A DNA stretch of 64,000 bases from Corynebacterium durum (GTDB lineage: Bacteria > Actinomycetota > Actinomycetes > Mycobacteriales > Mycobacteriaceae), in the NCBI RefSeq assembly GCF_030408675.1, contig NZ_CP047200.1, positions 496,001 through 560,000 on the forward strand, read 5' to 3'. This document shows positions 1,167 through 63,018 of this stretch, one piece after another. The stretch's first letter is position 1. Each line of letters opens with the position of its first letter. Under the pieces are notes generated by a model. That model was not told the origin of the DNA, ran no database searches, and saw only the letters and a list, made by a program, of their open reading frames with translations. The translations under genes were made by a program, and so were the position numbers.

Positions 1167-2033
1167 GTGACGGAAAAAACAGCAACTCCCTCAGCGATGG
1201 CCAGGCTTCGACTTGACGTAGCCTACGACGGCACAGACTTTCACGGCTGGGCCAGCCAAGATGGGCTACGCACGGTTCAGGGGGTGCTGGAGGATGCGCT
1301 GTCTATGATTCTGCGGGTGCCGACGTCGCTCACGGTCGCGGGACGCACCGACGCCGGGGTTCACGCATCCGGGCAGGTGGCGCATGTCGATGTCCCCACA
1401 GCCTCACTGGACACACGGTCCATCGGCGGCGACCCGATGCGCATGGTGCGCCGCCTTGCTCGCCTCCTGCCGGAGTATATCCGGGTTCAGGATTGCACGT
1501 TCGCACCAGCTGGGTTCGACGCGCGGTTTTCTGCGTTACGACGCCACTACACCTACCGCGTCACCACACATCCCGGTGGGGCATTGCCAACACGTGCGCG
1601 AGATACGGCAACGTGGCCGAAGCCAGTGGATATGGCGGCGATGCAGGAATCAGCGAATTACCTGGTGGGGCTTCATGATTTTGCCGCCTTTTGCAAGGCT
1701 CGTCCCAATTCCACGACGGTGCGCGACCTACAGAGTTTCACCTGGCACGATGTGTCCACTGATGCAGAACCACAGTTGTATGAGGCACACGTGACGGCTG
1801 ATGCGTTTTGCTGGTCGATGGTACGTTCGCTGGTGGGTGCATGCCTGGCTGTGGGGGAGGGGCGTCGACAAGCGACGTTTGCGGAGCTGTTGCTTGCGGA
1901 AAAACAGCGGTCGTCGTTGGTGCCTGTTGCGGCAGCGAAAGGGTTGACGTTGGTGGGCGTTGATTACCCGGCGGATGACCAGCTTGCTGGACGGGCACTT
2001 TTGACCAGAAACATGCGTGATACGCGCGTGTGA
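1167..2033 (+). CDS. truA: tRNA pseudouridine(38-40) synthase TruA
   Basis: TruA isomerises uridines 38-40 in the tRNA anticodon arm. The protein has 288 residues with the N-terminal [17 protein letters not shown] and the catalytic-aspartate motif GRTDAGVHA (Asp about residue 62). The C-terminal half carries the family segment ending [20 protein letters not shown]. The start is a GTG without a Shine-Dalgarno sequence but with a -10-like hexamer 8 bases upstream. It sits after the rplQ terminator, the usual actinobacterial position. Confidence 0.95.
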
Positions 2034-2128
2034 GTGAAAATCTGTGCTACCAATGCCCTTGGTGGTGGGGGTCGGGGGTAGAATTTTGAGAGTCTGTCAT
2101 TACACGGATTGCAGGGAGTGGGTTTCGG

Positions 2129-4669
2129 ATGGAGATTTACCAGGCAGCGTATGTCGCGATCGCGGTCTTCACCGTACCCGGTTTCGTCGTTGCGTGGATT
2201 TCCGGTCTGAAACTACCCTGGGCAGTAGGTGTGTCCATTCCCGCAAGCTTTGGTATTTATGGCCTTGCTGGCTGGTATTACGGCACCACATCCTACGCAT
2301 TTGACCTTAATAGTGTTGGGGTGATGTGGGGTTTTCTCACCGCACTCGCCCTGCTGTGGCGGCTATGCTTCTGGCGTGGCCGCGTGCTTCAAGCACGAAG
2401 ACGCGAACGCAAAGCCCGTTTTGAAGAGCAGTGGCGGCTAGCACAGGAAGAGCTTGACGACGACCTGCAGGAGGGGGACCTGCCGGACGGGCCGGAGCGG
2501 GTGGCTAACGCCGGGTTTGCAAAAACCGAGGTCATGCACGCCGTCGATATGGATGGGGTAGACGACGAACTCGTTGATGAGCCTGCCGATTTTTCTGACG
2601 ACCCTGATGCGGAAGAACTAGTAGAAGAACCCAAACCTCCGCGTTTTCCCAGGCTGCATCGCTGGTGGAATGGCCAGTGGCGCGTGGGAAGCGTGCTGGA
2701 TCCCGTGTGGATTCTACCTGCTGCGGGCATCCTCACCGGCTGCTACATGCTGATTGCCCGTGGACTGAAACTGCTTGACTCCGCCAAAGGCGGCATGGAG
2801 AACATTTTCCAGGGCTGGGATGTGCACTGGCATGCCAGCGTTATTCAGTTCATTGGCGATACGGGTGTGGCATCGTCAACCCGCATGGGCGAGCTGCAAA
2901 ACCTGGAGACCCACGACACTATGTTTTATCCCGCCGCCTGGCACGACGGCGTGTGGGTGTTCAAAGAGATCGCGGACATCAGCCCCATCGCGGCCATTAA
3001 CATTTCCTCCATAGTGCTGCCTGGATTGCTGCTGCCTGCTTCTGTGGGGTTGATTGCCTGGCGGCTGGTAGGCAAACGCGGCCTGACAGCGCAGATTGCC
3101 GCAGGTCTTGCGGGATTGATAGTGGTGCCGCTGCCAGTGCTCATGTGGATTGGTAATTACGTGGGTGCATGGCCGTATCTGGCTGCGATCGCTATGAGCG
3201 GCATTGTGCTGGGCATCTTCATGTCTGTTCCCGCTGTACCTAGCCGCGCATTCGCCACGGCTCTGGCCTTTGGCGGCATGGTGCAAACCCACCCGTCCGC
3301 CGCGACCGTCGTGGTGATGAGCCTGGCATGCTGGTGGCTCCTCTGGCTGCTGTGGGCACCAGCGAGGAAACCTCGAGGATGGAAGCAGCATATTGGGTAT
3401 CGCTTCAGCGATGTACTTATCCTGGCTGCCACAGGTGCTGTGGGCACGTTGTTGTTGCTCCCGCAGATTGTGTCAGGTGCCGGGCAGACGGAAGAAGTCA
3501 AGGCTTTTACTGCCCAAGAGGACATTAGCCGCACCGACTCGTGGTGGGTGAGTATTAAGATGCTCACACGGCATGCGGAGGACTTCGGCACGAACTGGCC
3601 ACTTCTTTGGACAGCCGCTGTGGGTGGTGTGTTGTTGATTCTGTGGCGCCGAAACCTGTGGGGACCGGCGTTCTATGCACTCAGCATTTGGATTTGTGCG
3701 AACTCTCTGGTTCCCTTTGGCGATGGATGGGCAGACATCCTTGGTTCTGTGGGGGCACTGCACTACAACACGGGCCATCGCTTGGTCATGCCGGCGGCGA
3801 TGTTCTGTGCTGCGGCAGCGGGCGTGGGCCTTGCTGCCGTGGGCCGGCTTGTGCTTCTTGGGCCGATTCAGCGGTGGAAACCGCTGCGTATCGGCTCTAA
3901 CCTGTTGTCCATTATCGCGGGCATTGTGGGTGCATGCGTGCTGGTGTCCTACATTCCGTCCATGATGGATAAGTCCTCTGACTGGTCTATTCTCTCGCCT
4001 CGTGATGATCGCATGGTGGACAAGGCAGACAGGGCAGGTTTTGACTGGCTCGCCAAGCAACCGCATGCCTACGACGGCGCGATCATGTTCAATCCGGCGG
4101 AAGGCCCCGGCTGGATGTACGCCTACAACGGCCTGCCGGGTGTGTTCCGGCACTACTCCTGGCCGTCGGCCAAAGCCGGCACGGACACCTCACTGGTGTA
4201 CCACTTCCCGAACTTCGTGGGCCAGGGCAACTACAACGACCCCGATTACCTCAACGACATTGACCTTGCGACCAGGAACCTTGGGATTAACTACTTCTTC
4301 GTCTCACCACCTAATTTCTGGGCGTTCCAGGAACCCCACCCCAACATGGAGTTTGGGCTGTGGGACGCGCCGGGACTCACACCCATCTACAAGAACAAAC
4401 AGGTCATCATTTTTGCTGTGAATGCCCAGTTCACTGATGCTGAGTTGGAGCAGATGCGCGCACCCGGTAATTCTCCAGAGCCGTTGCCGCCGCTGCGCAC
4501 TAAAGGTGAGGCTGGGGCCACGGAGTTGATGTCCGAATGGAATGAACCCTATTTCCACCGGTCCTGGAAGTTGCCGCACCGGAGCGACCCGCCAACCATA
4601 CCCCCAAAGGATGGAACGGGCGAGGACACTCAGGTGACTGACCCCTTGGTTCCGGTAGAGATAAACTAG
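2129..4669 (+). CDS. Large multi-pass membrane protein, DUF6541-like
   Basis: The protein has 846 residues. Two hydrophobic segments open it (about residues 5-45), followed by a charged cytoplasmic-looking loop rich in Asp/Glu/Arg (about 90-180), then some ten further membrane segments and a soluble C-terminal part from about residue 630. The segment YPAAWHDGVWV near residue 270 is typical of the DUF6541 family, which is often discussed as GT-C-like membrane glycosyltransferases of mycolate-type envelopes; that function is inference. A TAGAAT hexamer at 2079-2084 could be its -10. Its place between truA and eccB is conserved in corynebacteria as far as I know. Confidence 0.65.
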   Translation: MEIYQAAYVAIAVFTVPGFVVAWISGLKLPWAVGVSIPASFGIYGLAGWYYGTTSYAFDLNSVGVMWGFLTALALLWRLCFWRGRVLQARRRERKARFEEQWRLAQEELDDDLQEGDLPDGPERVANAGFAKTEVMHAVDMDGVDDELVDEPADFSDDPDAEELVEEPKPPRFPRLHRWWNGQWRVGSVLDPVWILPAAGILTGCYMLIARGLKLLDSAKGGMENIFQGWDVHWHASVIQFIGDTGVASSTRMGELQNLETHDTMFYPAAWHDGVWVFKEIADISPIAAINISSIVLPGLLLPASVGLIAWRLVGKRGLTAQIAAGLAGLIVVPLPVLMWIGNYVGAWPYLAAIAMSGIVLGIFMSVPAVPSRAFATALAFGGMVQTHPSAATVVVMSLACWWLLWLLWAPARKPRGWKQHIGYRFSDVLILAATGAVGTLLLLPQIVSGAGQTEEVKAFTAQEDISRTDSWWVSIKMLTRHAEDFGTNWPLLWTAAVGGVLLILWRRNLWGPAFYALSIWICANSLVPFGDGWADILGSVGALHYNTGHRLVMPAAMFCAAAAGVGLAAVGRLVLLGPIQRWKPLRIGSNLLSIIAGIVGACVLVSYIPSMMDKSSDWSILSPRDDRMVDKADRAGFDWLAKQPHAYDGAIMFNPAEGPGWMYAYNGLPGVFRHYSWPSAKAGTDTSLVYHFPNFVGQGNYNDPDYLNDIDLATRNLGINYFFVSPPNFWAFQEPHPNMEFGLWDAPGLTPIYKNKQVIIFAVNAQFTDAELEQMRAPGNSPEPLPPLRTKGEAGATELMSEWNEPYFHRSWKLPHRSDPPTIPPKDGTGEDTQVTDPLVPVEIN

Positions 4670-4729: not shown

Positions 4730-6013
4730 ATGGCCAATATCCTATTGCCAACATCAAAAGCTCAGGTCAGTGGCTACAAATTTCTCATGCGCCGCGCCCA
4801 ACACGGCGTGGTGTTGGGCGATATCCGCATGATTCATGATCCGCTTGCGCGCAGGCATCGTGCGCTTTACGCGGGGGCCGCCATGGCTACGGTCCTGGGA
4901 CTGGGGGCAGGTGCCATGGCGGTGCTGAATCCGGCCATCAATCCCGGGGAAGCACCCATTGTGGCATCGGAATCGGGGGCTTTGTACGTGCGTATCGACG
5001 CCACGCTTCACCCCGTGACCAACCTCGCTTCCGCAAGGCTGATCACCGGTGAAGCAACGCAACCCGTACGCGCTTCCGACTCCGTACTGGCCACTATTCC
5101 CCGTGGAGTACCTGTGGGCATTCCCGACGCCCCAGGCATGATTGCCCCGGAGCCGCCGGGGGATACGCACTGGTCCGCATGCCACCACGAGGCGGGCGTG
5201 TTGGGGGCGTTACCGCACGTTAGCGTGCAGGTGGGCCACCCAGCGGAGCACCTTCGTGATAACGAAGCCCTTGTAGCGGAGGTTGCGGGGCATTTTTACC
5301 TAGTGACCAACAAGGGCCGCGCCCAATTACCAGCCGAGAACACCCCTGAGGGACGCGTGATTCGCCGCAGACTCGGCATTACTCCAGATGTTTTTGTGTG
5401 GCGGCCCCCGCGTGAACTCCTCAATGTGATTGCGGAGCAGCCTCCCCTACACATCCCCAATAACGTGCGTGAAGTCCTGGTGTCTGACGGTGGTGCGTGG
5501 GTGCGTTATGAGAACGGTATCCAGCCCATCACATCCTTCCAACACGACATTCTGCGTGATGCCAACATCAAAGAAACACGAGTCAACGCGGGTATCCTGG
5601 CGGAACACCCGGACGCTCCACCCGCCCCTATCACGCTTCCGACCGAGCCACTGATGTTGATTCATCTGCGCCCCGAAAGCCGAGTGTGCGCCACAGACGC
5701 GGACGGCGTGGTGAGCGTGGATGCTGAAGACCTTGTTGATGATGCCCACAGCACCCAACCACGACGTGGTGTTGCCTTAAGCGGTGACAGCCTCGCCCGC
5801 ACCTACGTTGGACCTGGAACCGGGGTGGGGGTGGACTCGGGACACGGTTATTTTGTGGTGTCTGATACGGGAATAACGCACCGGGTGGCCTCCCACGAAG
5901 AACTCGAAGCGCTAGGGGTACGCACACCCGCGACTGCGCCCTGGTCGATTATCAGACTCCTGCCCAGCGGTTCCCAGCTGGCCAAGAAGCAAGCCATGCT
6001 TCCCACCTACTAG
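4730..6013 (+). CDS. eccB: Type VII secretion core protein EccB
   Basis: EccB is a membrane-anchored, mostly extracytoplasmic subunit of the ESX membrane complex. The 427-residue protein begins with the family segment SKAQVSGYKFLMRRAQHGV and the basic stretch DPLARRHRAL. One transmembrane helix follows (about residues 46-66) and then the external repeat domain. The ATG is preceded by GGGGGAAC. It ends tail-to-tail with mycP, the two stop codons overlapping, so eccB and eccD-mycP are convergent units. Confidence 0.92.
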   Translation: MANILLPTSKAQVSGYKFLMRRAQHGVVLGDIRMIHDPLARRHRALYAGAAMATVLGLGAGAMAVLNPAINPGEAPIVASESGALYVRIDATLHPVTNLASARLITGEATQPVRASDSVLATIPRGVPVGIPDAPGMIAPEPPGDTHWSACHHEAGVLGALPHVSVQVGHPAEHLRDNEALVAEVAGHFYLVTNKGRAQLPAENTPEGRVIRRRLGITPDVFVWRPPRELLNVIAEQPPLHIPNNVREVLVSDGGAWVRYENGIQPITSFQHDILRDANIKETRVNAGILAEHPDAPPAPITLPTEPLMLIHLRPESRVCATDADGVVSVDAEDLVDDAHSTQPRRGVALSGDSLARTYVGPGTGVGVDSGHGYFVVSDTGITHRVASHEELEALGVRTPATAPWSIIRLLPSGSQLAKKQAMLPTY

Positions 6014-7233
6014 CATTCACGTGCATCTGGCACAGCCTGCAAGCTTTTCACGCGGGCTACTATCACCCACCCCAGCAACACCATGACGATCACCACCACG
6101 GCAATTCCACACCGACGCATGATGTCATCGTTGGTGGCGACAGGCTCAACTGCCTGTTGACGGTGCGTGATGGTGCTGTACTTTGCCGGAACTTGGGTCA
6201 GGGCGCGGTACGGTGACACCGCCCCGGTCCCCGGGTCGGCGCTTTCAATAATCCGGGCGCGAATTTGCAGTGCAGTATCGTCCGGGTAGCGTTCCTTCAA
6301 CAGTGCCGCCGTGCCGGAGACGATAGGCGCGGCGAAACTCGTTCCAGTAAATGAGGATGGGCCCTGCTCGGTGACCATCCCCGCTGCAAAAACACTGGCA
6401 GGGGGTTCACCAACATCAGGTGAGAGCCCCACTGGCGTTGTGCCCGGCGCGGACAGCAATACCCCGCTGGGTGGGATGGAATAGGTTGCGATGGTGTGTG
6501 GCTCATCCTGTGCAGACACAGCCAACACGGTTGATGAATGCGCGGGGTAGACAATGCTGTCAGGTTCACAGTTTGTGCCAATGTTGCCGGTGGCTGCAAC
6601 AACGACGGTGCGTTGTTCTTCGGCGCGGCGGAGTGCTGCATCAAGCCCTTGCCGGAGTTTCGCACCGTCGGGATGAGTGCGCAGTGCGCCAGGGACGCAG
6701 GAGACCACGGAGATGTTGATGACCTGCGCGCCAAGGTCGAGGGCGCGGTGGATGGCGGTGGTGAGGGATTCGAGGGTGCCGCCGTGGTCGTTGTCACGCG
6801 TGTGGGCGCTGGTTTGTCGGATGCTGATGATGGTGGAGTCCGGAGCGATGCCCACGTAGTCATCAGGTCCGGCGGCTCCAGCAATGAGACCAGCAACAAT
6901 GGTGCCATGGCCATCGCAGTCGTGGAGGGGGTTGTGTTCCCCAAGGAGGTCGGCACCGGCGTCAAGCCGGGGTAGGAGGCGCGGGTGGGGTGCGACCCCA
7001 GTATCAATGACGGCGACTTTGACGTTTCGTCCAGTGGCTATCGAGTGTGCTGGTTTGAGGGAGCTTTTCGACGCCGCCCGCGCGGTGTCGGCACGTAGGG
7101 GAGGGTCGGTCGGAACGCTGCGGGCGCACGCTGGGGGTGGCGGTGTGGTGGTATGTTGGGCGTCGGCACAGGGTGCGGAAGCGCACAGAAGCAACGCTGT
7201 GGCAGCGACAGCGGTGACGTGGTGGCGTCTCAT
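6010..7233 (-). CDS. mycP: Type VII secretion mycosin (subtilisin-like serine protease)
   Basis: Mycosins are membrane-anchored subtilases required for ESX system stability. The catalytic triad is visible: Asp77 in VAVIDTGV, His109 in DGHGTIVAG and Ser299 in GTSFAAPIVSG. There is an N-terminal signal peptide (about residues 6-25) and a C-terminal transmembrane helix followed by a short basic tail, as in other mycosins. The ATG overlaps the eccD stop by 4 bases, so the two genes are co-translated. Confidence 0.93.
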   Translation of the reverse strand: MRRHHVTAVAATALLLCASAPCADAQHTTTPPPPACARSVPTDPPLRADTARAASKSSLKPAHSIATGRNVKVAVIDTGVAPHPRLLPRLDAGADLLGEHNPLHDCDGHGTIVAGLIAGAAGPDDYVGIAPDSTIISIRQTSAHTRDNDHGGTLESLTTAIHRALDLGAQVINISVVSCVPGALRTHPDGAKLRQGLDAALRRAEEQRTVVVAATGNIGTNCEPDSIVYPAHSSTVLAVSAQDEPHTIATYSIPPSGVLLSAPGTTPVGLSPDVGEPPASVFAAGMVTEQGPSSFTGTSFAAPIVSGTAALLKERYPDDTALQIRARIIESADPGTGAVSPYRALTQVPAKYSTITHRQQAVEPVATNDDIMRRCGIAVVVIVMVLLGWVIVARVKSLQAVPDAREC

Positions 7234-8624
7234 CCGAGTCCCCTGATCAGGCTAAAAATGCCAAGAAGATGCGCAGCGAGTGGAATGGTGGCTGCGACGG
7301 CGAGGGATTCGAAGCGTTCGAGCCAGTTGAGCGTAGTGGGGGAGAGGGTTTTGATGTGATGCGCCCACAGCGGTGCGGTGGTGCATACGAGTGCGCCGAG
7401 TGCCCCGATGCAGAGCAGGGGCGTGTTTTTACCTGCAAAGAGCAGGCAGAGTCCGATAGCGGCGATGCTGGTCATGCCCCATGACCAGAGGGACCAGAGT
7501 GCGAGGATGCTGCGGTGTCGCATAGCGTGGGCGAGGACAGCCCCGGCGCTGGCTGCGCAGAGAGCTGCCGTGTAGCCGTCGCCACGGAGGCTGAGCACAA
7601 TCATGGCTGGTATGGCGCAGGCCACTGTTCCGATGAGAATGCCGTCGAGAAGTGCGGTGGCGCGGGAGGCCCTGGCCTCGGGATTGTCAATGGGAATGTC
7701 GGCAACGTTGAAGTCTTGACCCGCCGAGGGCAGTTGTGGGACGCGTAGCCCGGCGAACCGGAGGGACAGCCATGGCGATAGTGCGACCAGGACGGTGGCG
7801 ATGACGCAGGTGGCGGCGGCAATGCTGCTGGGGGTTGAGGTGAGTGCGAACGCTGCGCTGGTGCACGCGATGACAGTGAGTGCGGTAGCACATGCCACAG
7901 TGAGCCGCAGTGGTGGTGTCCCCAGAATGTGGCAGGTGATCAACATGGTTGCGCCGCATAGTGCGGTGACCAGTCCGGCCCATGGAACAGCGGAGAGCTG
8001 GCTTGATGCGATGGGGAACGGAATGATGAAGCTGAGTGCGCCGAGGCACGTACAGATGACACTGGTCAAGCACAGGATGCTCAGCGCGGCTAAGGCCCCC
8101 GTTGAGTCGCCATCTGGTGAATCGTTGAATAAGGATGCCGTAGAGCGCATGCGGGTGAGCACAATAAGTGTTAAGAGCGCCACGACCAAAAATTTTGCCC
8201 CCAGCGGAATGATACCCGTCAGTGGTGACATGGCACAGCACATGATGAGAATGATGCCCACTAGGGTGCTTAATGTGGTCAGCCCAGTGTGCTGACGGGT
8301 CGTGCCGTGGTCGATGAAGGATTCTGCTGCGTCGCACAGGACGGGTGGTTCCACGTCGCGGTGTGGCGATAAAACTATGGTGCTCCCGTGGGTGAGTGGT
8401 GTGTGGGCGAGCGGTTGCGCGGCGTCGATAAGCACACCTGCAGCAGTGGTGGCTTGCCAGGGGCGGCTGATGCGTGGGGCATCGGCGAGTGTGAGTACCT
8501 CATCAAGAATCTCAGCGATGCTGGAGTTGCGCGGAACCGCAAGGTCAATGCAGGTGCTGGGATAAGCGCTATCTGGAATATCAATGCGGATGGTGATGCG
8601 CAAGGCGCTGTCAGTGGCCACCAT
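7230..8624 (-). CDS. eccD: Type VII secretion membrane channel protein EccD
   Basis: EccD has a ubiquitin-like N-terminal domain and eleven membrane helices and forms the ESX inner-membrane vestibule. Here residues 1-95 form the soluble domain (LRITIRIDIPDSAYPSTCID...), followed by a run of about eleven hydrophobic segments to the end, 464 residues in all. I chose the ATG at 8624 because AAGGGGG lies 6 bases upstream. The longer frame from 8690 lacks this and would run toward the eccC promoter. It overlaps mycP by 4 bases and is divergent from eccC. Confidence 0.88.
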   Translation of the reverse strand: MVATDSALRITIRIDIPDSAYPSTCIDLAVPRNSSIAEILDEVLTLADAPRISRPWQATTAAGVLIDAAQPLAHTPLTHGSTIVLSPHRDVEPPVLCDAAESFIDHGTTRQHTGLTTLSTLVGIILIMCCAMSPLTGIIPLGAKFLVVALLTLIVLTRMRSTASLFNDSPDGDSTGALAALSILCLTSVICTCLGALSFIIPFPIASSQLSAVPWAGLVTALCGATMLITCHILGTPPLRLTVACATALTVIACTSAAFALTSTPSSIAAATCVIATVLVALSPWLSLRFAGLRVPQLPSAGQDFNVADIPIDNPEARASRATALLDGILIGTVACAIPAMIVLSLRGDGYTAALCAASAGAVLAHAMRHRSILALWSLWSWGMTSIAAIGLCLLFAGKNTPLLCIGALGALVCTTAPLWAHHIKTLSPTTLNWLERFESLAVAATIPLAAHLLGIFSLIRGLG

Positions 8625-8707: not shown

Positions 8708-11700
8708 ATGTCCAGCCGGTGGGGGAAACCGGCGTTGAAAAAACATAAAAAGGGGGGTGTTTCCCAGTTGTCAGCACCACATGTTTCACCATCACATGCT
8801 GTTGCGTCGAGCACCATTGTGGTGCCGTTAGCGTACGCGGAACGCGAACCAGCGCCGCCGTTACCATCGGGAACCTTGACTGCGGAACCTGTTCCGGCTG
8901 CCGTGCGACCGCAGCCGGTGCCGATGGTTCGATTGTTGTTACCGCTGGTTATGGTGTTGGCGTTCGTCGGGATGATGGGGCTAATGGTGCTCAACAGCCG
9001 TAATGGTTCCGGCGGGATTGGGGCTGTGTTACGCAACGCGAACCCAGGAATGTTGGTGTTTCCGCTGATGATGCTCATGAGTGTTGCCACTATGTTCGCC
9101 CCGCAGCAGGCCGATGATCCCGATGAAACCCGCAGGATTTTCATGCGCCACATTGGTGTGTTGCGCGCGAAAGCCCTGAAAAACGGACAAGCGCAGCGCA
9201 CGCACGAGTTGCATAAACACCCTGACCCGGCGTTTATGTGGTCGCATGTGGGGTCGCGACGTATGTGGGAACGCAACGCCAACGATCCTGATGCGTTAGA
9301 AATTCGGATGGGCGTTGGTGCCACGCGCCTGTGCACCCCCATTGACGTGCAGGATTCCGGTGCGGCCGAAGACCTTGACCCGGTGTGTGCTGTCGCTCTG
9401 CGGCACACCGTCCGATCCGTAGGGACGCTGGAGAAAATGCCCATTTCCATCCAGTTACGAGCGTTCCGCTTCCTGGGGATTTCCGGGCCCCACGCTGCGA
9501 ATATGGCGCGTGCGTTGGTGCTGCAGCTCGTGTTTCATCACGGCCCTGAAAGCGTGGGCATCAAGGTTCTTGGTGGTGGTTGGGAATGGGTGAAATGGTT
9601 GCCCCACACACGCACCATCGACTACGCCGCTTACCGCATTCTGATTGTGGATTCCGTGACTACCACTGGAGTGGAATCCTTCATCGACGATCCCTACTGG
9701 ACCACCATCATTGACGTCGGTTCCCACGAACACACAGCTCTGGGGGCTCGCGCCCGCGACGAAGGGCTGTGCCTCAGCGTCGAAGGTGACGAGCTGATCG
9801 CACACACCATGAGCGGCCCAGAACCGCTGGGCAGCCCCGATCTGATCACCGAAAACCAAGCATGTGCTGTGGCCAAAGCCATGAACGCGTATCGACGTCC
9901 CGCAGACACCGACTCCGCTACCGCTTCCGGTGACTTCCTGTCTCTGCTTGGTGTGGGCAGCATTGACCAGCTCACTCCCGGCGCACTATGGCAACCTCAC
10001 ACCACGCCTGAGACGGCTCGGCAGCGTCTTCTGGTGCCACTCGGATTGGGCGATACAGGCAGGCCGTTGCTCTTGGACCTCAAAGAATCCGCACACGGCG
10101 GCGTGGGACCGCACGGCTTGTGCATCGGGGCTACTGGGTCGGGAAAATCCGAATTGCTCAAAACCCTGGTCCTTGCGCTGGCGGTCACGCACTCGCCGGA
10201 AGAACTGAACTTTGTGCTCGTCGACTTCAAAGGCGGTGCGACCTTCCTGGGGCTTGATCGGCTCCCACACACGAGCGCTATCATCACCAACCTGGCCGAA
10301 GAATCCACCCTGGTCGAGCGCATGCACGATGCCATCAGTGGTGAACTCAACCGCAGACAAGAAGTACTCCGTGCCAGCGGAAACTACGCCAATGTCCACG
10401 ACTACAACAAAGCCCGCGCAGACAACCCTGACCTTGAACCGCTCCCAGCCCTGCTCATCGTCCTCGACGAATTCTCCGAGCTTCTTGCCCAACACCCTGA
10501 CTTCGCCGACCTTTTCGTCGCCGTGGGACGCCTCGGACGCTCCCTTCATATCCACCTTCTCCTGGCCAGCCAACGGCTCGAAGAAGGACGCCTGCGTGGA
10601 TTGGATTCGCATCTGTCTTACCGCATTGGGTTGAAAACATTCTCGGCTGCGGAATCCCGCCAAGTACTCGGCGTTGTTGATGCCTACCATCTGCCAGCGC
10701 GGCCCGGTGCGGGCTACATCAAAACCGATGCTGAGGAGGTCACGCGCTTCCAAGCAAGCTACGTCTCTGGACCGTTGCCCAGCTCAGCTGCAACAGCGGT
10801 TGCGGAAACCTGTGGCATTCGTGTATTCACAGACTGGGAGAGCATTGCCCCGCCCGAGGTCATCAATTCGGATGACAATCTCGATGAAGAACACAGCGAC
10901 ACACACGAGGACACCACGACGCTGCTTGACGCCGTTGTGGACATTGCCCAAGAAGCTGGGCGGCAGCAAGGAGTTTCAGCGCACACAGTGTGGCTACCGC
11001 CGCTACCTGATACTATTCCTCTCTCTGAGGTGATAGCTGCCCGAGACGCGGCAGCGGGCTATGAGACAATGGAAACCCCGGCAACATGTGACTGGGAAGC
11101 AGCTATCGGCATCATTGATCGCCCTTACCATCAGCGCCAAGACCCTCTCGTCTTGTCCTTTACAGGAACCGGCGGGCATGCCGCGATCTGCGGTGGGCCG
11201 CAGACAGGGAAAACCACGGCACTGCGCACCATCGTTTTATCCCTAGCAGTCACCCACCCCACCAGCGCCGTTCGCTTTTACGTCCTTGACTTGGCGGGAA
11301 CCGCCCTAGCCACACTCGCGCGGATTCCACACGTTGCTGGGGTGGCGCACCGTAATGATCCAGAAAAAGTCCAGCGCATCGTTGATGAAGTCCTCGGTTT
11401 CATTGACGAACCGGACGATCGGCACACGTTCCTCATCGTTGATGGTTGGCACACCGTAGGAACCGACTTTGACCACCTGGTTGATTCCTTCAACCGCATC
11501 GCCGCAGATGGTCTTGCCGCAGGTGTGCATCTTGTGGCCAGTACTCAGCGCTGGACTGCCATGCGTCCAGCGATTCGTGACCTGATCAGCCATAGGATAG
11601 AACTGCGGCTCGGTGAAGCGATGGATTCATTGATCGACCGAAAAGCCCAGCTGAAACTTCCGCACGCGCCGGGACGGGGCTTAACCACCGATGGTGAACC

Positions 11701-12517: not shown

Positions 12518-13482
12518 GTAGCCTCAGCTCGGTAAAAATTACCGTTTTGGATTCTGCCACGCTTTTTGAGGGTATCGACACGATTTACCGCTATGACTTG
12601 CCTGGTACAGGCGTGGAAGAAGGCTGGGCCGTCAACGCTGTGATCGAACAGATCCGTGACATGTATGGGGCTGTGTGGCCTGATGTTGAGGTAGTCATCG
12701 ATGGTAGTGAAGCCGCCACGGATATGTTGAGCCGCACGTTGTTGAATAAAGGCGTGACGGCCTACAGCATTGAGGCGCTCACCGATCCTGTGATTCAGGA
12801 ATCAGGCAGCCAACCTAGCCATGAGGATCTTTTTCAGATCAGGCGTCCCACCGAACATACGCGGCAGTTGCCCTTCACCCGATTTCATGCTGTGCTTGCG
12901 GGTATCGGGGTAGTGATCGTCGGTGGGGTAGTGCTGCTTGTTGGTAACTCAGTGCGTACCGACGCCCCCGCACACAGCCATGCTGCAACCGTCAGTACCG
13001 CAGCACATGCCCTGGGGAACGGGGCGTCGTCACCCGCGGCAAGTACCCGCCGTAAACAGGAAGTGCCGCCGTCGCGTGTTCTGGAATACCAGAACGTGGT
13101 GTTTTCCGTGCCGCAGGGTTTTAAACTTGAACCCCGCGATGACGGTTTGTTGGTGGCCACTGGTGATGATCCAAATCTGCGTATTCTTGTGGCGGCCGAC
13201 CCCATTCATAATGTGGATCCAGCGGCGGTGCGGCGGGAAGTGGAGGAAATGGTGGAACATGACCCACAGCTCACGGCTCAAAGCGACGAGCAGATGCGCG
13301 GGCCTGAGATTGTGACACAAACCTACCGCGAAGATCCGGGGGATGGATCCAGTGTGCTGTGGGTGACGTGGGTGCAGCAGAACAACCAGGTAAGCGTGGG
13401 ATGTCATAGTAAAACGAATGCCACGATTCCACAGAAAGCTGCGTGTCGAATGGCTGTGGAAACCCTCCAGCTGAAAAATTAG
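12514..13482 (+). CDS. Type VII secretion-associated membrane protein (Rv3446c-like family)
   Basis: The 322-residue protein has a soluble N-terminal domain (about 1-115), one transmembrane helix (about 125-150: VLAGIGVVIVGGVVLLVG), a low-complexity Ser/Ala linker and an external C-terminal domain with two cysteines (VGCHSK, KAACRM). This architecture matches the actinobacterial family annotated as type VII secretion-associated (TIGR03931, Rv3446c). The ATG overlaps the eccC stop by 4 bases, so it is translationally coupled to the ATPase. The locus has no recognisable eccE. Whether this protein fills that place is speculation. Confidence 0.7.
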   Translation: MSSLSSVKITVLDSATLFEGIDTIYRYDLPGTGVEEGWAVNAVIEQIRDMYGAVWPDVEVVIDGSEAATDMLSRTLLNKGVTAYSIEALTDPVIQESGSQPSHEDLFQIRRPTEHTRQLPFTRFHAVLAGIGVVIVGGVVLLVGNSVRTDAPAHSHAATVSTAAHALGNGASSPAASTRRKQEVPPSRVLEYQNVVFSVPQGFKLEPRDDGLLVATGDDPNLRILVAADPIHNVDPAAVRREVEEMVEHDPQLTAQSDEQMRGPEIVTQTYREDPGDGSSVLWVTWVQQNNQVSVGCHSKTNATIPQKAACRMAVETLQLKN

Positions 13483-37631: not shown

Positions 37632-37711
37632 GGGATTCTTTCCTGTAGGGGGAGAGGCTGGCTGTCTATCGGGGCGTCGATAAGCAGCCATGAGGCGTGA
37701 GTGAAATGCGG

Positions 37712-49392: not shown

Positions 49393-50061
49393 ATGCATGT
49401 AACCCATTTGCCTGAAAAAACTCAGGATTATTTGAAAACGGTGTGGGATATTTGCGAACGCACCGGTGCCCCAGCCGCGCTGGGTAAAATTGCAGAGCAA
49501 ATGGGCCAGAAAACCTCCACCACATCCGAGGCCATTAAACGCCTCACCGAACGTGGGTTACTTGTGCATCCAAAATATGGGGGCATTTCCCTCACCCCAG
49601 AGGGCAACGCATTCGCCATGGCCATGGTGCGCCGCCACCGACTTGTGGAAATGTTTCTCTACACCACCCTTGGCTACACCTGGGACGAAGTGCATGACGA
49701 AGCTGACCTGCTCGAACACGCGATTTCAGACACCCTGCTTGCGCGTATCGACGCCCACCTGGGTCACCCTACCCGCGACCCCCACGGCGACCCCATTCCT
49801 GATGTGCACGGCAGCATCGAAACCGTGGCTGAACTTGACTTAAGCCAAATTGAACCTGGGCAGACCGTCACCGTTGACCGCATCCATGACCGCGACCCCG
49901 AACTGCTCCGCTACCTTGCGGAACATAACATTTGCCCTGGCGTGCGCATTACTGTGTCTACCGACAATTTTCCGGGAATGCGCGTGGTGCATGTTAACGG
50001 TAATGGCGCATCAGTGCCGCTCGCGCATTCCAGCCTGTGGGCGATCAACGTTCATGCTTGA
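49393..50061 (+). CDS. mntR: DtxR-family metalloregulator, MntR-like
   Basis: The 222-residue regulator starts MHVTHLPEKTQDYLKTVWDI and has the winged helix (LGKIAEQMGQKTSTTSEAIKRL), the dimer/metal-binding domain (MVRRHRLVEMFLYTTLGYTWDEVHDEADLLEHAIS) and a C-terminal SH3-like domain. In C. diphtheriae the gene at this place, mntR, represses mntABCD with manganese. The -10 spacing favours the ATG at 49393 over the TTG at 49375. The 3' end overlaps the convergent CPBP gene by 51 bases. Confidence 0.9.
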   Translation: MHVTHLPEKTQDYLKTVWDICERTGAPAALGKIAEQMGQKTSTTSEAIKRLTERGLLVHPKYGGISLTPEGNAFAMAMVRRHRLVEMFLYTTLGYTWDEVHDEADLLEHAISDTLLARIDAHLGHPTRDPHGDPIPDVHGSIETVAELDLSQIEPGQTVTVDRIHDRDPELLRYLAEHNICPGVRITVSTDNFPGMRVVHVNGNGASVPLAHSSLWAINVHA

Positions 50062-52343: not shown

Positions 52344-52695
52344 GGGAATTAAGCATCCGGCTAAGGATCCACAGCTGGAGCGGGCGCTAGCCAACCCGCA
52401 CGATGCCGGTGCACCCCCGTCATTACTGCCCCCAGTTTTGCAGTACTGTGGCCTGGGCATTTTTGGGGCGCTGCTGGTATTTGCGCTGGTATGCGGGGTG
52501 ACGGATCACTGGCGGCGCGCCACGTTCGCCCTTGGTGTTGCGTTGACGTGGCTTGCGGGGTTGCGACTGGTGTGTGACAGCCGAGTTATGGGTGTTCTGG
52601 GCGTGAGGTCGCGGCGTTTCGACGCCGCCTTTACCACCACGCTGGGGGTCAGCATGATGTTTGTGGCGGGTACCGTCGATTCCTTGGGAAGCTAG
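52327..52695 (+). CDS. DUF3017-like small membrane protein
   Basis: The 122-residue protein has three membrane helices: [37 protein letters not shown] and [15 protein letters not shown], with the RRFDAAFTT segment before the last. This is the DUF3017 pattern of actinobacteria. The start is uncertain: GTG at 52327 (overlapping folD by 17 bases) or ATG at 52303. It ends directly against the convergent metX. Confidence 0.7.
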
Positions 52696-53790
52696 TTAAA
52701 TACCGGCAAGCACGCGGAACCTGCGGATGATGCGGTCCACTTGGCGTATTTCGGCGAGAAAGGCGTCGTGTCCGACGGGGGAGACGATTTTGGCTACTCC
52801 CAAGAGGTTTCCCAGGTTCCGCGACAAGTGTTCTTGCTGGTGGTACGGGTACAGAATGTCGGTGTCCACGCCTACCACCATGGTGGGAACCGTGGAGGAT
52901 GCCAGCGCTTTGTTCAAGCCACCGCGCCCCAGTCCAATATCGTGCCGGTTGAGGGAGTCAGTGAGCGTCACGTAGGAACCTGCGCAGAAGCGTTCCACCA
53001 GTTTCTTAGCTTGGTGGTCTAGGTAGCTATCCACCGCGAAGCGCTGCGTGGAACTGCGGAACTGACCTCGGGGATTTTCGCCGGGTTGGGCGTCCGCACC
53101 GAACCGTTCATCAACCTCTTGCTCGCCGCGATAGGTCAGGTGCGCGATGCGACGCGCGGTGGCCAGCCCCTGATCTGGGGTGCGACCGGTGTTGTGGAAA
53201 TCTCCGCCTTGCCAGTTAGGATCATGCTCAATGGCGGCGATCTGCGAGGACTGAATGCCGATCTGCCATGCACTCGCTCTAGCGGATACGGCCATCACCA
53301 GTGCGGATCGTACAACGGAGGGATAGAGGAGCGACCATTCGAGGCACCGCGCCCCGCCCATGGATCCACCCACGACGGCGGTGATGGAATCAATGCCGAG
53401 TGAGTCAAGAAATTGTTTTTCAGTAGATACCTGGTCGCGGATGGATATTCCCGGGAATCGCGAACCCCACGCCGCACCGTCGGGATGAATCGAGCTGGGG
53501 CCTGTGCTGCCGCTGCAACCGCCAATGACATTGGTACACATCACGCAGTAGATGTCGGTGTCTAGCGCTTTGCCGGGGCCGATGATGCCCGGCCACCACG
53601 CAACTGCGTTGGAATCACCGGTGAGGGCATGTTCGACGAGGATGATGTTGCTGGTTCCCGAGGCGTCGATACGCAGTTCCCCCCACCGTTGGTAAGCAAT
53701 GACAACGTCGGCGATCTCTGCCCCCGCTTCGGTGCGTACCGTGCCAATGCGCTGGTGGCCGAGAGTGTTCTCCTCAACGAGTGGTTGCAT
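52696..53790 (-). CDS. metX: Homoserine O-acetyltransferase
   Basis: MetX acetylates homoserine in methionine synthesis. The 364-residue alpha/beta hydrolase-fold protein has VIAYQRWGEL, HALTGDS, the nucleophile elbow VVGGSMGGARCLEW (Ser about residue 143), and Asp/His partners in GVDTDILYP and GHDAFLAE. It shares an operator-like site with metQ and metY. O-acetylhomoserine made here is the substrate of MetY encoded 7 kb away. Confidence 0.96.
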   Translation of the reverse strand: MQPLVEENTLGHQRIGTVRTEAGAEIADVVIAYQRWGELRIDASGTSNIILVEHALTGDSNAVAWWPGIIGPGKALDTDIYCVMCTNVIGGCSGSTGPSSIHPDGAAWGSRFPGISIRDQVSTEKQFLDSLGIDSITAVVGGSMGGARCLEWSLLYPSVVRSALVMAVSARASAWQIGIQSSQIAAIEHDPNWQGGDFHNTGRTPDQGLATARRIAHLTYRGEQEVDERFGADAQPGENPRGQFRSSTQRFAVDSYLDHQAKKLVERFCAGSYVTLTDSLNRHDIGLGRGGLNKALASSTVPTMVVGVDTDILYPYHQQEHLSRNLGNLLGVAKIVSPVGHDAFLAEIRQVDRIIRRFRVLAGI

Positions 53791-53853: not shown

Positions 53854-53855
53854 GT

Positions 53856-54641: not shown

Positions 54642-56669
54642 ATGTTGTCTGTGAGCCGCACGGCACGCGCTTTCCGACGCCCCCTCGCGGCCGCTGCCAT
54701 CGCAGCTGCGGCGTGTGTGACCGTCACTCCTATCGTGTCCCCCCATAACACACTGATGGGATCGGCAGGTGCCCAAGCAGGCGAGAAGTGTGCAGTCTCG
54801 CAGGTGGGCTGGGGCGTGCGCCAGTCCTTCCGCAGCTACATTGAAGGCAGGATTGCCAAGGGCGGTTGGAAAACGGAAGGGACCGTCAATTACAACGGCG
54901 ATGAGTTCGTGTTCAACGAGCCGTTCCCACCGATTGAAACCACCGATGACGGCACTACCATCGTGCCCCTTGGGGAGGACAACGGCATCCGCTTTTATGG
55001 GCACAGCTATAACGACAAGCCCAAACTCGACATGACGCTCAAAGATTTCAGGATTGCGGTCAACGGAAGCTCCGCCAAGATTCTGGTGGATTACGATGCC
55101 AACCTGCCGGATGATATGAGTGCAGATTCCCCGGACAACTTTGTGCGAGGCGACGACGTTGCTATCGCCGAGGTTGCCTTGAACGGTACACCTGACTTCA
55201 CCTCGGATGCCGTTGATTTGAGCGGTGACGTCACCCTTACCGATATTGGTGACAAGCTCTTCTTAGGCAACTACGGCACCGGCGGCGAGATGGATCCGCT
55301 GAACGCCAACATCAACCTTGGCGCCGAATGCGCAGCTCGTGTGGCTAACGTCACCAACGGCAATAGCAGCGGCGGACGTGGCAACGGCGGTGGTTCCAAG
55401 ACGACCTCGACCAAGAAGAACAACGCCCCGGGTCTCGATGCCCTGAAAACAGCCAATGACTACGGCACCGCGGTGAACAACCTGCTGTCCACCACGGATA
55501 AGATCATCACCAACATTGATAAGTTGGGTGCCCGTTTCAACCAGAACGGTGCGTCCGTCAATGGCCCTGGCCCTGGCCCTGGCGGTGGCACAGTTAACCG
55601 CGCAAGCGGTGCGTCCGGCACCGGGAACGGTGGTGGAGCCGCAAAAGGTGGGGATACCGCTGGGCGAGCTGTTGCCACCGCAGGGACTGCGGGTGGAGGT
55701 CACCAAGGTGCCGCAGGAGGCGCGGCGTCGACAAGCGGTGGCGGTGCCGGATCTGTGTGTACAGCCGAAAGTTCGCTAGGCGTGACGGAAGCTAGCGCGG
55801 CCTGGGGTGTTAAGCAGTCCTTCCAGTCCTACATCACTGGTTCCATCGCGAAGGGTTCGTGGGAACTGAGCGGTGTGTCCCACAGCGATGGCGAATTTCA
55901 CTTCGCCGGCAACTCCGGGGCCGTGGACCCAAAGGCGAACACGGGTACCATCCTGTTCCCTGGATCCATGCACTTCACAGGTCATAAAGGGGTGCTTCAA
56001 CTGAACATGTCCAACCTGGAAATTCAGTGGAGCGGCAACTCAGGTTCCCTGGTGGCTACCGTTTCCTCCAACAATATGGAGGGACACAACACGGACTTTG
56101 GGCGAGTTGCACTGGCGAATCTTTCCTTCAACCAGCTCAACGTAGGTGACAATGCAGCATCAGGTTCTGCCACAGCGTCGCTGACTCAAGCCGGTGCCCA
56201 AGCGTTCGCCGACTTTTACCCTGAAGGCACCCAGCTAGACCCAATTAGTTTCACCGCATCTCTTGGTGGTGCAGCAAGCTGTACTGCGGGGCAGGGGTCT
56301 GGTGCTTCTGGTGGGGGAGTTGCCGGTGCCGGCGGCAATGCTGCGGCTGCCGCTGCAACCAAAGCCGGTGGTTCGTCCGGCGCAAACGGTGCAAAAAGCG
56401 GGAATGCCGCTGGCGGTACCAACGCCAAGTCGGGGTCTGCTGCCGCAGCGAAGCTTGGCGTGAAGACCAATGGGGCACAAGATTCCTCCGAGGGAGCAGG
56501 ATTTGACAGCAAAGGCTCGTTCAAAATCAAATCCGCAGCGGCGGACGCTGATGGTGCAGGCACTGGCGGTTCGCCTTTTACCACTCCCATCCTGATGATC
56601 CTGGGTGCGTTTGTGATTGCCGGAGCCACCCTATCCCAGTTTGTTTCCCGAAATCCCAACAGCCGTTAA
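54642..56669 (+). CDS. htaA: Cell-surface heme-binding protein HtaA with two CR domains
   Basis: HtaA takes heme from hemoglobin at the surface and passes it to HmuT. The 675-residue protein has a signal peptide (to about residue 45) and two conserved-region domains (about 50-230 and 375-560). Each shows the heme-ligand tyrosine (SYIEGRIAKGGW; SYITGSIAKGSW) and a following Gly-His (FYGHSYND; HFTGHKG). A Gly/Asn/Ser-rich linker (about 235-370, GPGPGPGGG) separates them. A second Gly/Ala linker leads to a C-terminal membrane helix and basic tail. AAGGAG precedes the ATG. Confidence 0.93.
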   Translation: MLSVSRTARAFRRPLAAAAIAAAACVTVTPIVSPHNTLMGSAGAQAGEKCAVSQVGWGVRQSFRSYIEGRIAKGGWKTEGTVNYNGDEFVFNEPFPPIETTDDGTTIVPLGEDNGIRFYGHSYNDKPKLDMTLKDFRIAVNGSSAKILVDYDANLPDDMSADSPDNFVRGDDVAIAEVALNGTPDFTSDAVDLSGDVTLTDIGDKLFLGNYGTGGEMDPLNANINLGAECAARVANVTNGNSSGGRGNGGGSKTTSTKKNNAPGLDALKTANDYGTAVNNLLSTTDKIITNIDKLGARFNQNGASVNGPGPGPGGGTVNRASGASGTGNGGGAAKGGDTAGRAVATAGTAGGGHQGAAGGAASTSGGGAGSVCTAESSLGVTEASAAWGVKQSFQSYITGSIAKGSWELSGVSHSDGEFHFAGNSGAVDPKANTGTILFPGSMHFTGHKGVLQLNMSNLEIQWSGNSGSLVATVSSNNMEGHNTDFGRVALANLSFNQLNVGDNAASGSATASLTQAGAQAFADFYPEGTQLDPISFTASLGGAASCTAGQGSGASGGGVAGAGGNAAAAAATKAGGSSGANGAKSGNAAGGTNAKSGSAAAAKLGVKTNGAQDSSEGAGFDSKGSFKIKSAAADADGAGTGGSPFTTPILMILGAFVIAGATLSQFVSRNPNSR

Positions 56670-59864: not shown

Positions 59865-59911
59865 ATATTGTTTTCCGGGTGGTTGACGCCCGCTCACTAC
59901 AGGAGTCTCGT

Positions 59912-60769: not shown

Positions 60770-60787
60770 TCTTCTTCGTTGAAGCGT

Positions 60788-60826: not shown

Positions 60827-60843
60827 CGTTCCGCTAACAGGTC

Positions 60844-62160
60844 TTAGCTGATGGCAGCGAAGCCCGCTTCGAGGTCGGCGATGATGTCATCAATGTTTTC
60901 AATGCCCACCGAGAGTCGGATGGTGGACTGGTTGATCCCGGCGCGGCGGAGTTCTTCCTCGTTTGACTGCGAGTGTGTTGTGGTGGCGGGATGGACAACG
61001 AGGGAGCGCACATCACCGACGTTGGCGACGTTGGAGTGGAGTTTCAGGGCGTCGATAAACGCCCATGCTGCATCCTTGTCGCCTTTGATGTCAAAGGAAA
61101 GGACGGAGCCGGTGTAGTCGAGTCCTAGTTTTTCTTTGATGCTGTACCAGGGGGATGTTTCAAGTCCGGCGTAGTTGACAGTGGCGACTTTGGGGTGGCG
61201 TGCCAAAAATTCGGCGACTTTCTTGGCGTTGCTGTTGTGTCGTTCAACGCGCAGGGACAGTGTTTCCAAGCCTTGGGCAGTGACCCATGCGTTGAAGGCC
61301 GAGGGGGCTGCACCGGTGTCGCGAAGGAGTCCGACTCGGGCTTTGAGCCCGAAGGCAGCGGGGCCGAGGTCGGCGTAGCGGAGGCCGTGGTAGGCGGGGT
61401 CGGGTGTGACAAAGTCGGGGAATACGGGGGCACCATTGCGTTCAATGGTCCAGTCGAATTGCCCACCGTCGACGAGGACACCGCCGAGCGCGGAGCCGTT
61501 GCCGGTGTAGAACTTGGTCAGGGATGCGACAACGATGTCAGCACCCAGTTCGAGGGGACGGACGAGTGCTGCGGTGGCGAGCGTGTTGTCCACAATGAAC
61601 GGGACGTTGTTGGCGTGTGCCACCTCGGCAATAGCGGGAATGTCGAGGATGTCGGCCTGGGGGTTGGCGAAGGTTTCGCCGTAGAAGGCGACGGTGTTGT
61701 CTTGGACGGCAGCCTGCCAGGAGGCAGGATCGTCGGGGTCGTCCACGAAGGTGGTTTCTATTCCCAGGCGGGCGAGGGTGACGGTGAATAGCGTGGTTGT
61801 GCCGCCGTAAAGCCGCGGGGAGGAGACGATATGGGAGCCTGCGCGGGCGAGATTGAGGATTGCTGCTGTTTCGGCCGCCTGCCCGGAAGCGAAGAGGACA
61901 GCATGCACGCCACCTTCCAGTGAAGCGAGTCGGTTTTCTACGACTTCAACGGTGGGGTTGGTGAGGCGGCTGTATACAGGGCCGAGGTTTTCGAGGGCGA
62001 AGCGTTGTTTAGCGTGTTCGGCGTTGTCGAATACGTAAGAGGAGGTGAGGAAGATGGGAAGGTTGCGTGCACTGGTGTCGCTGTCGACTGTTTGACCCGC
62101 GTGGATGGAGCGGGTGTCGAAGCCCCAGTCGGCTGCATTGCTGTTGTCGTATTGTGGCAT
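60844..62160 (-). CDS. metY: O-acetylhomoserine sulfhydrylase
   Basis: MetY makes homocysteine from O-acetylhomoserine and sulfide using pyridoxal phosphate. The 438-residue protein has WGFDTRSIHAGQ, LTSSYVFDNAEHA, the cofactor-binding lysine in SLTKFYTGNGSALGG and RLSVGIENIDDII at the end. I choose the ATG at 62160, 7 bases after AAGGATT, rather than the TTG nine bases upstream. It works with MetX. Confidence 0.96.
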   Translation of the reverse strand: MPQYDNSNAADWGFDTRSIHAGQTVDSDTSARNLPIFLTSSYVFDNAEHAKQRFALENLGPVYSRLTNPTVEVVENRLASLEGGVHAVLFASGQAAETAAILNLARAGSHIVSSPRLYGGTTTLFTVTLARLGIETTFVDDPDDPASWQAAVQDNTVAFYGETFANPQADILDIPAIAEVAHANNVPFIVDNTLATAALVRPLELGADIVVASLTKFYTGNGSALGGVLVDGGQFDWTIERNGAPVFPDFVTPDPAYHGLRYADLGPAAFGLKARVGLLRDTGAAPSAFNAWVTAQGLETLSLRVERHNSNAKKVAEFLARHPKVATVNYAGLETSPWYSIKEKLGLDYTGSVLSFDIKGDKDAAWAFIDALKLHSNVANVGDVRSLVVHPATTTHSQSNEEELRRAGINQSTIRLSVGIENIDDIIADLEAGFAAIS

Positions 62161-62203
62161 GGGTAGCAATCCTTAGTATCGATGAATTTTACACCAACAT
62201 AGT

Positions 62204-62218
62204 GAACAGCTCGGTCTA
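62204..62218. promoter_or_regulatory. McbR-like operator upstream of metY
   Basis: GAACAGCTCGGTCTA shares ACAGCTCKGTCTA with the sites before metQ and metX. A weaker copy, CCGCTCTGTCTG, follows at 62226-62237. It lies 44 bases before the metY start. Confidence 0.55.
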
Positions 62219-62241
62219 GTGCAAACCGCTCTGTCTGTCCA

Positions 62242-63018
62242 TTATCGTTGTGCCTGGTGTCGGCTTGGTTTTCTCGAATTAAACCAAGCTTTTACCCCTA
62301 CAAGGAGGGCGGCGACGATCGCTGCTGCGATGAGTGCCTTTTGTTGCCAGGGCATGGGGCGTGCGTCAGCTAGTTCATCGGCGCAGTGTGTGAGGTTGGT
62401 CTTCAGGGTTTGTTGTGCGGAGTTGTAGTCAGCAGCGCGGGTGCTGAAGAGTTCGGATCGGAGGGCGTCGATACGCATGCCGGAGGATGCTTGGCTCTGC
62501 AGGGTTCCGGAAATGGCTGCGGCGGGGTTGTCGCCGATGTCCTGCGCGGCAGTGCGTGCCTGCTGCTCGGTGTATTCGGTTCTAAAACCGGGGTCGGTGG
62601 CGGCATCAATTCCGGCATCGGCCGCGGTTTGTGTGGTGAGCATACCTAAGCCTTCCTGTCCGCCCGTATTGGTGATGCGCTGTTGCAGGTCGTTGACAGT
62701 TGGCGCTCCTTCCCTGCCTGATTCGTAGGCGGCCAGGTCGGCGGCAAACCCTGGGGAGGCTTTGTCGATTTCTGCGATGCGTGCCTTGCGGACATCGTTT
62801 TCCAGCTTGTTCCAGAAGTCCCGTACCTGCGAGGGGGAGTTAGGGTCTACCCGACACAGCTGCTTCTCTGTGTCGGCTGTCACCGTGAAAGCGTTGCTTG
62901 CTGGCGGCGTTAGGAGTGCGGCAAGCGTAACGACGGCCGCCGTACCCACTGTTGTCACGATGGGCCTGCGGGTGACGGGGGTAGGTGGCAGGGGTGGTTG
63001 ATGAAAAGAAAACCTCAT
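62242..63018 (-). CDS. Secreted, membrane-anchored protein of unknown function
   Basis: The 258-residue protein has a Pro-rich N-terminus, a signal-like helix (about 22-42), a helical external domain with two cysteines (QLCRVDPNS, THCADELAD) and a C-terminal membrane helix with a basic tail (ALIAAAIVAALLVGVKAWFN). I do not recognise a family. It lies between metY and cstA. The arrangement suggests a surface protein held at its C-terminus. Confidence 0.65.
   Translation of the reverse strand: MRFSFHQPPLPPTPVTRRPIVTTVGTAAVVTLAALLTPPASNAFTVTADTEKQLCRVDPNSPSQVRDFWNKLENDVRKARIAEIDKASPGFAADLAAYESGREGAPTVNDLQQRITNTGGQEGLGMLTTQTAADAGIDAATDPGFRTEYTEQQARTAAQDIGDNPAAAISGTLQSQASSGMRIDALRSELFSTRAADYNSAQQTLKTNLTHCADELADARPMPWQQKALIAAAIVAALLVGVKAWFNSRKPSRHQAQR

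Follow-up and report, generated by a model that had tools for sequence, protein, structure and literature searches.

A dispersed, asymmetric word of the Corynebacterium durum chromosome as a probable DNA uptake sequence with dialects

A 64-kb stretch of the Corynebacterium durum genome (positions 496001-560000 of a single contig of 2,786,863 bases; this whole stretch is called the window below) carries the word GGCGTCGANAMGC scattered along its genes, and the question raised by this locus is what keeps so many copies of one word there. A recount gives 19 exact copies spanning positions 1861-62476, as stated in the first-pass annotation of this DNA, and 16 one-mismatch copies, of which that annotation had reported only eight; all 35 copies together are to be compared with an expectation of 0.77 (100 dinucleotide shuffles, maximum 3). 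As argued below, GGCGTCGANAMGC is probably a DNA uptake sequence (DUS) with dialects, read by a transformation system combining a Flp/Tad pilus with ComEA/ComEC, uptake as such being inferred from the distribution of the word and from the genes at hand.

Excess of the word and shape of the site in C. durum

All the exact copies of the window lie inside coding sequences of the gene set used (7 sense, 12 antisense) and they occupy five of the six frame/strand classes, in line with the earlier description of a word found in both orientations and several reading frames. Shuffling synonymous codons within genes (500 shuffles) leaves 0.28 exact copies on average and 3 at most, against the 19 observed, so that the excess survives the codon-aware null on which the first-pass annotation had made its reading depend. 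Some peptides do recur: three exact sites (19546, 33531 and 55724) encode A-S-T-S, as annotated, while A-S-K-S, announced in two proteins, is encoded at one exact site (7063), only exact sites having been translated. The annotated link between variant and orientation is also found, 10 of the 11 exact copies with T at the ninth base being antisense and 4 of the 4 with C being sense; we read this split in the frame data as codon choice at a free ninth base, because T there would give an ATA codon in the commonest sense frame, whereas it gives ATC (Ile) in the antisense frame most often used. Scanning the window against Rfam and for tRNAs produced no hit.

The whole genome holds 495 exact copies of GGCGTCGANAMGC (269 forward, 226 reverse) versus 5 of the reversed pattern, with forward/reverse densities per Mb of 98.7/82.9 in the first 1.013 Mb and 95.3/80.1 in the rest. 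In an unbiased count over 464 kb, made of the window and 20 evenly spaced stretches of the genome, the GGCGTCGANAMGC family tops the ranking of words 8 to 11 bases long. The anatomy of the site was studied on 78 exact copies in 484 kb of the genome, with genes called by a simple codon-usage caller that recovers 31 of 35 ortholog-supported genes: 64 copies fall in called genes and 14 outside, versus about 18% of non-coding DNA. A regulatory or transcription factor site was rejected, intergenic preference being absent both from the window and from the 484-kb sample.

The motif is asymmetric and non-palindromic. After correction for codon phase and strand, its flank retains information upstream, at C(-3) G(-2) S(-1), G(-9) G(-8), C(-13) G(-12) and G(-18); downstream, only R(+1) is left. 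In the uncorrected profile, a periodicity of G upstream is partly due to codon bias, and the corrected signal is what remains of it. Because the corrected information lies upstream, with R(+1) alone on the other side, the site is an asymmetric one spanning about 30 bases, and its weaker preferences lie upstream, at a distance of about one turn of the helix from the core.

Polarity was examined with chromosome arms set by the change in GC skew between 1.42 and 1.54 Mb. In the sampled DNA (20 stretches, another locus and the window), 34 copies of GGCGTCGANAMGC are on the leading and 44 on the lagging strand, i.e., there is no polarity, whereas the word TGGGGGAG, our internal positive control, has 55 leading copies and 0 lagging ones. 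TGGGGGAG has been published as a polar word among the architecture imparting sequences of Corynebacterium (PMC2830990), and its wholly leading-strand distribution in the sampled DNA of C. durum agrees with this. GGCGTCGANAMGC is, like these sequences, a dispersed and over-represented chromosomal word; unlike them, it is not strongly leading-strand polar, and an architecture imparting or FtsK-orienting role is disfavoured on this count.

Regarding the arrangement of copies, two copies less than 500 bases apart usually face opposite ways (10 of 12 pairs in the first 1.013 Mb of C. durum; 32 of 42 in samples of other genomes, p = 0.0009). For pairs 500-2000 bases apart, the bias persists in the first 1.013 Mb of C. 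durum (7 of 31 with the same orientation) but is absent from the other samples (51 of 115, p = 0.26). The idea that deserts of the word are mobile islands was dropped, a 34.6-kb gap near the origin being within chance; its sampled part presumably covers the dnaN, recF, gyrB, gyrA region, judging by the starts of the proteins.

Dialects, turnover and plasmid scarcity in the genus

Enrichment in relatives, the other result on which the first-pass reading depended, is found throughout much of the genus: among 242 Corynebacterium genomes, 131 have at least 100 exact copies (100-866 each), 39 have 20-99 and 72 have fewer than 20, with at most 8 copies of the reversed-pattern control in any of them. 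The named species C. bouchesdurhonense and C. glucuronolyticum carry this first word. By comparison, counts are 0-33 in 90 genomes spread over 43 genera elsewhere in the order, and a single copy occurs in 1.16 Mb taken from 60 loci outside the genus; as far as sampled, the strong signal is confined to Corynebacterium. The highest count outside the genus belongs to G308, from another genus of the same family (33 copies versus 2 of the reversed control), which perhaps carries a related signal.

Words were also counted de novo in 60-100 kb from each of 24 other genomes, mostly chosen for being word-poor, and clear related words appeared in six of them: GGCATCGGCAAGC in G001, G096 and G106, words of the form CGTCGNNAAGC(G) in G005 and G089, and CGCG(G/A)CGTCAT, sharing only part of the core, in G012. 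The related words CGTCGNNAAGCG and CGCGRCGTCAT mark further word-poor genomes. Weaker relatives were seen in G004, G080, G142 and G048; the remaining 14 of the 24 sampled genomes (G007, G011, G018, G028, G029, G042, G120, G131, G202, G206, G216, G227, G230 and G241) gave no clear word, G202 having a faint CGTCGGCAAG and G028 40 copies of the A form. In two of the word-poor genomes, other words are over-represented with 4-5 copies each, namely GGAGCACCCGG in G018 and the palindrome GGTTCGTGAACC in G120. Fixed-pattern counts per 60 kb bear these dialects out, with 14, 13, 18 and 9 copies of GGCATCGNNAAGC in G001, G096, G106 and G004 versus 0-2 in the rest, and 22 of CGCGRCGTCAT in G012 versus 0-1 elsewhere. 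Genus-wide, GGCATCGNNAAGC passes a threshold of at least 130 copies in 17 of the 242 genomes (range 136-578), none of which has more than 20 of the first word. Among named species, C. phoceense has the A form, and C. pilosum and C. urinipleomorphum the CG form. The flanks of several other dialects are G-rich upstream too, in profiles drawn without codon-phase correction and, for some sets, from few copies.

On a tree of a single gene, TopA (32 rows, the labels of named loci resting on 15-21 kb each), the nine dialect labels need 17 changes versus 20.3 when shuffled, a value as low being reached in 4 of 200 shuffles; dialect is, on these numbers, somewhat clustered on the tree, yet it switches repeatedly. 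Two fully supported sister rows differ in this way, Corynebacterium sp. ACRPO having 11 copies of GGCGTCGNNAMGC and 0 of the A form, and a metagenome-assembled genome 1 and 7.

Individual sites are short-lived. At orthologous codons of G025, which has the same dialect as C. durum, 2 of the 15 mappable window sites (exact or one-mismatch copies) are exact and 3 are within one mismatch, and at 3 of 9 mappable sites (25129, 32907 and 37268) the corresponding position of G001 is spelled in that genome's dialect. Density is maintained while most positions turn over between species; protein constraint may account for some of the positions shared between dialects. The core of the first-pass proposal, a chromosome-wide DNA signal and not protein conservation, stands because the counts exceed the synonymous-codon null, both strands are used and sites are mostly not kept at orthologous codons.

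Plasmids and small contigs are poor in the word. We counted 269 kb from four motif-rich hosts, including G013 (C. atrinae), G031 (C. comes) and G103 (C. marinum), made of three plasmids in full and of the opening 15 kb of three more small contigs that may be plasmids (sizes 26-96 kb). One exact copy was found, versus 39.9 expected at host genome density (P about 2e-16), an expectation based on rounded genome sizes and not corrected for gene content. The same DNA has 12 copies with at most one mismatch; for comparison, 400 kb of the C. durum chromosome has 56 exact copies and 181 with at most one mismatch. A search for plasmids with an HNH-type protein found none from Corynebacterium. Phage BFK20 and half of phi674 contain 0 copies of the window word, which we do not count as evidence because the dialect of the phage host is not established.

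Transformation genes and competing explanations

The genes that an uptake system would need are present almost everywhere in the genus where tested. Of 242 genomes, 241 have ComEC (PF03772), and a TadA-type ATPase (PF00437) is present in 52 of 52 tested, 51 above cut-off. In 34 genomes, 16 with a dialect and 18 motif-poor, DprA was matched in all, 32 above cut-off (misses G029 and G112), and so was ComEA, 31 above cut-off (misses G029, G206 and G128; weak matches include other helix-hairpin-helix proteins). A lack of ComEC, TadA, ComEA or DprA as the cause of motif-poor genomes is not supported, these genes being near-universal where tested, in motif-poor genomes too. In addition, a TGA lies within the ComEA match of G007 and within the ComEC match of G123, and decay of transformation genes is possible in these two genomes as well as in G029, G112, G206 and G128. 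C. durum has seven tad-like genes in a row, in which Pfam recognizes T2SSE (TadA), T2SSF (TadC), DUF4244 (a Flp-like pilin) and Tad PF13400 (TadF), TadZ, TadB and TadE being named by position. In C. atrinae, comEA and comEC stand together, next to a gene that we take to be holA. A plasmid of the same species carries a gene annotated as DNA-processing protein DprA (L231:43260-44171), and a second DprA match is also present in G025 and G146.

To our knowledge, the only established cases of uptake sequences with dialects come from two groups of Gram-negative bacteria, Neisseriaceae and Pasteurellaceae. The DUS of Neisseriaceae is an over-represented word that comes in eight dialects with a core in common; five genomes of that family have no obvious one, and some dialects reach 2245-3603 copies (PMC3630211). 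Corynebacterium shares with that description the genome-wide excess, the dialects around a common core and the genomes without a clear word; it differs in the word itself, in the asymmetric preference over some 30 bases, in its lower copy numbers and in belonging to another phylum. Besides, Neisseriaceae have a ComP-type receptor, with none identified among the Corynebacterium TadE, TadF and Flp proteins compared, and their dialects follow the core-genome tree, whereas ours switch repeatedly on a one-gene tree. The uptake signal sequence of Pasteurellaceae consists of a core word with a weaker flank and occurs inside genes, which is also the case here, but its flank is AT-rich where that of Corynebacterium is G-rich, and the many lineage-specific spellings within one genus set Corynebacterium apart from it. 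Closer in phylogeny is the actinobacterium Micrococcus luteus, for which two papers report that tad/flp genes are required for transformation and that comEA and comEC homologs are present (PMC4322843, PMC6370729). The two share tad genes, a Flp prepilin with a G/XXXXEY site, a PF13400-like distal protein, ComEA and ComEC; transformation is demonstrated in M. luteus, while the Corynebacterium system is predicted here from its genes. Neither “uptake sequence” nor “sequence-specific” occurs in PMC4322843.

Neutrality as to strand and position and scarcity on plasmids are typical of uptake sequences. High copy excess, both strands without polarity, lineage dialects, plasmid scarcity and machinery genes are all found here, and it is on this combination that we take GGCGTCGANAMGC as a probable one. 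The first-pass annotation had left four functions open (chromosome organisation, recombination hotspot, uptake or modification) and had nothing on dialects, plasmid depletion or a one-sided flank; uptake fits best of the four because of the dialects and of the scarcity on plasmids, while the lack of replichore bias, in DNA where TGGGGGAG is 55/55 leading, speaks against polar organisation and a Chi-like hotspot. In the mechanism that we propose, GGCGTCGANAMGC would be the core of an uptake sequence of about 30 bases; the cell surface would bind free DNA carrying it in preference to other DNA, a Flp/Tad-type pilus and ComEA/ComEC would bring this DNA into the cell, and recombination would follow. 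Since uptake would favour word-bearing DNA, copies would accumulate along the chromosome, in both orientations, wherever proteins tolerate them, and each lineage, having its own spelling, would prefer DNA of its own kind over plasmids and other species. Uptake as the function, the pilus as its executor, and a pilus or Com protein as the reader of the word are what we infer.

One has to keep in mind several observations that weigh against uptake. Nearly all the motif-poor genomes tested retain ComEC, TadA, ComEA and DprA, which means that the occurrence of the motif does not follow that of the machinery; conversely, G128, a dialect genome, is among those without a ComEA match above cut-off. Divergence of TadE, TadF and Flp is not higher across one dialect switch (the one clear switch pair) than within dialects, giving no hint of a receptor. 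Even spacing, as a mark of uptake selection, was not found, spacing being random (coefficient of variation 0.92, null 0.87-1.14). Even the rich genomes have fewer copies than those quoted above for some Neisseriaceae dialects. Ten genomes carry both the G and the A spelling (at least 100 of the first word and 50-66 of the A form, e.g., 125 and 62 in G180), meaning that dialects are not wholly exclusive, and in 56 of the 242 genomes both of the counted dialects are scarce, a few of these genomes (e.g., G012) carrying a different one. Scarcity on plasmids is also what other signals long resident on the chromosome would show. Finally, among the matches listed in one open-access library, none reports natural transformation of Corynebacterium; in the same library, titles and abstract starts of the matches listed contain neither this word nor an uptake sequence in the genus.

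Of the other explanations, a binding site for an intracellular protein organising the chromosome or nucleoid, unrelated to uptake, shares much with the facts: the word is genome-wide, on both strands, about as dense in the first 1.013 Mb as in the remainder, hits genes as often as other DNA, has sequence preference over about 30 bases and is scarce on plasmids. We nevertheless find it unlikely, as dialects differing between sister species are unexpected for a core housekeeping binder, the motif is asymmetric and the 56 genomes mentioned above are poor in both forms. A Chi-like recombination hotspot, kept on the chromosome and taming a helicase-nuclease of the RecBCD, AddAB or AdnAB type, would account for over-representation and plasmid scarcity, and close copies tend to opposite orientation; given the 34 versus 44 copies without leading-strand bias and a word variable within the genus and far longer than known Chi sites (5-8 bases), this is improbable.

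Even less probable is a modification or self-marking site (methylation, phosphorothioation) protecting the chromosome from a defence enzyme, for which plasmid scarcity and lineage-specific spellings could be invoked: known modification sites are shorter than the word and its flank, and they are usually avoided, not accumulated. As for codon usage, amino-acid repeats or a dispersed mobile repeat, the recurrence of two peptide readings, Ile-Asp-Ala and Ala-Ser-Thr-Ser, speaks for them, and hardly any credit is left to them by the excess over synonymous shuffling in the window, in five frame/strand classes, by the little persistence at orthologous codons and by the absence of anything conserved beyond about 30 bases; we rejected protein conservation, codon bias and a mobile repeat on these grounds.

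Table 1. Copies of the word in the window, with strand, setting in the gene and state at orthologous places in other genomes.
Copy	Position	Strand	Setting
exact GGCGTCGACAAGC	1861..1873	+	sense in gene 1167-2030
exact GGCGTCGATACGC	4990..5002	-	antisense in gene
exact GGCGTCGAAAAGC	7063..7075	-	sense in gene
exact GGCGTCGATAAGC	8421..8433	+	antisense in gene
exact GGCGTCGACAAGC	19546..19558	+	sense in gene
exact GGCGTCGATACGC	21594..21606	-	antisense in gene
exact GGCGTCGATAAGC	24796..24808	-	antisense in GMP synthase gene (24179-25747); same letters in G013
exact GGCGTCGATACGC	26043..26055	+	antisense in gene
exact GGCGTCGATACGC	31195..31207	+	sense in gene
exact GGCGTCGAAAAGC	32416..32428	+	sense in gene
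exact GGCGTCGATAAGC	32907..32919	-	antisense; orthologous place: same in G214, GGCATCGGCAAGC (own dialect) in G001
exact GGCGTCGACAAGC	33531..33543	+	sense in gene
exact GGCGTCGATAAGC	37673..37685	+	antisense in gene
exact GGCGTCGAGAAGC	47622..47634	-	antisense in gene
exact GGCGTCGATACGC	49743..49755	-	antisense; same letters in G025
exact GGCGTCGAAACGC	52614..52626	-	antisense; same letters in G025
exact GGCGTCGATACGC	53662..53674	+	antisense in gene
exact GGCGTCGACAAGC	55724..55736	+	sense in gene
exact GGCGTCGATACGC	62464..62476	+	antisense in gene
one mismatch	1533..1545	-	
one mismatch	9887..9899	-	
one mismatch	12954..12966	-	
one mismatch	21710..21722	+	
one mismatch GGCGTCGGCAAGC	25129..25141	-	orthologous place: GGCATCGTCAAGC in G001, GGCATCGGCAAGC in G025
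one mismatch	27443..27455	+	
one mismatch	29793..29805	-	
one mismatch	31314..31326	-	
one mismatch	33297..33309	-	
one mismatch	37268..37280	-	orthologous place: GGCATCGGCAAGC in G001
one mismatch	40438..40450	-	
one mismatch	41631..41643	+	
one mismatch	41880..41892	-	
one mismatch	45036..45048	-	
one mismatch	54669..54681	-	
one mismatch	61048..61060	+	

Consequences for the genus

Corynebacterium is a Gram-positive genus with an outer mycolic membrane. On balance, we lean towards the view that it runs a sequence-specific, dialect-split uptake via a Flp/Tad pilus, of an origin independent from that of Neisseriaceae, in another phylum and with another pilus, in which dialects would act as species barriers to gene exchange as they do in Neisseriaceae. 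If this is true, much of the genus is predicted to be naturally transformable, and the dialects would help to explain which species exchange genes with which. At least four natural dialects would be available for finding the receptor, and a practical transformation rule for laboratory Corynebacterium would follow, namely to have the right word on the DNA.

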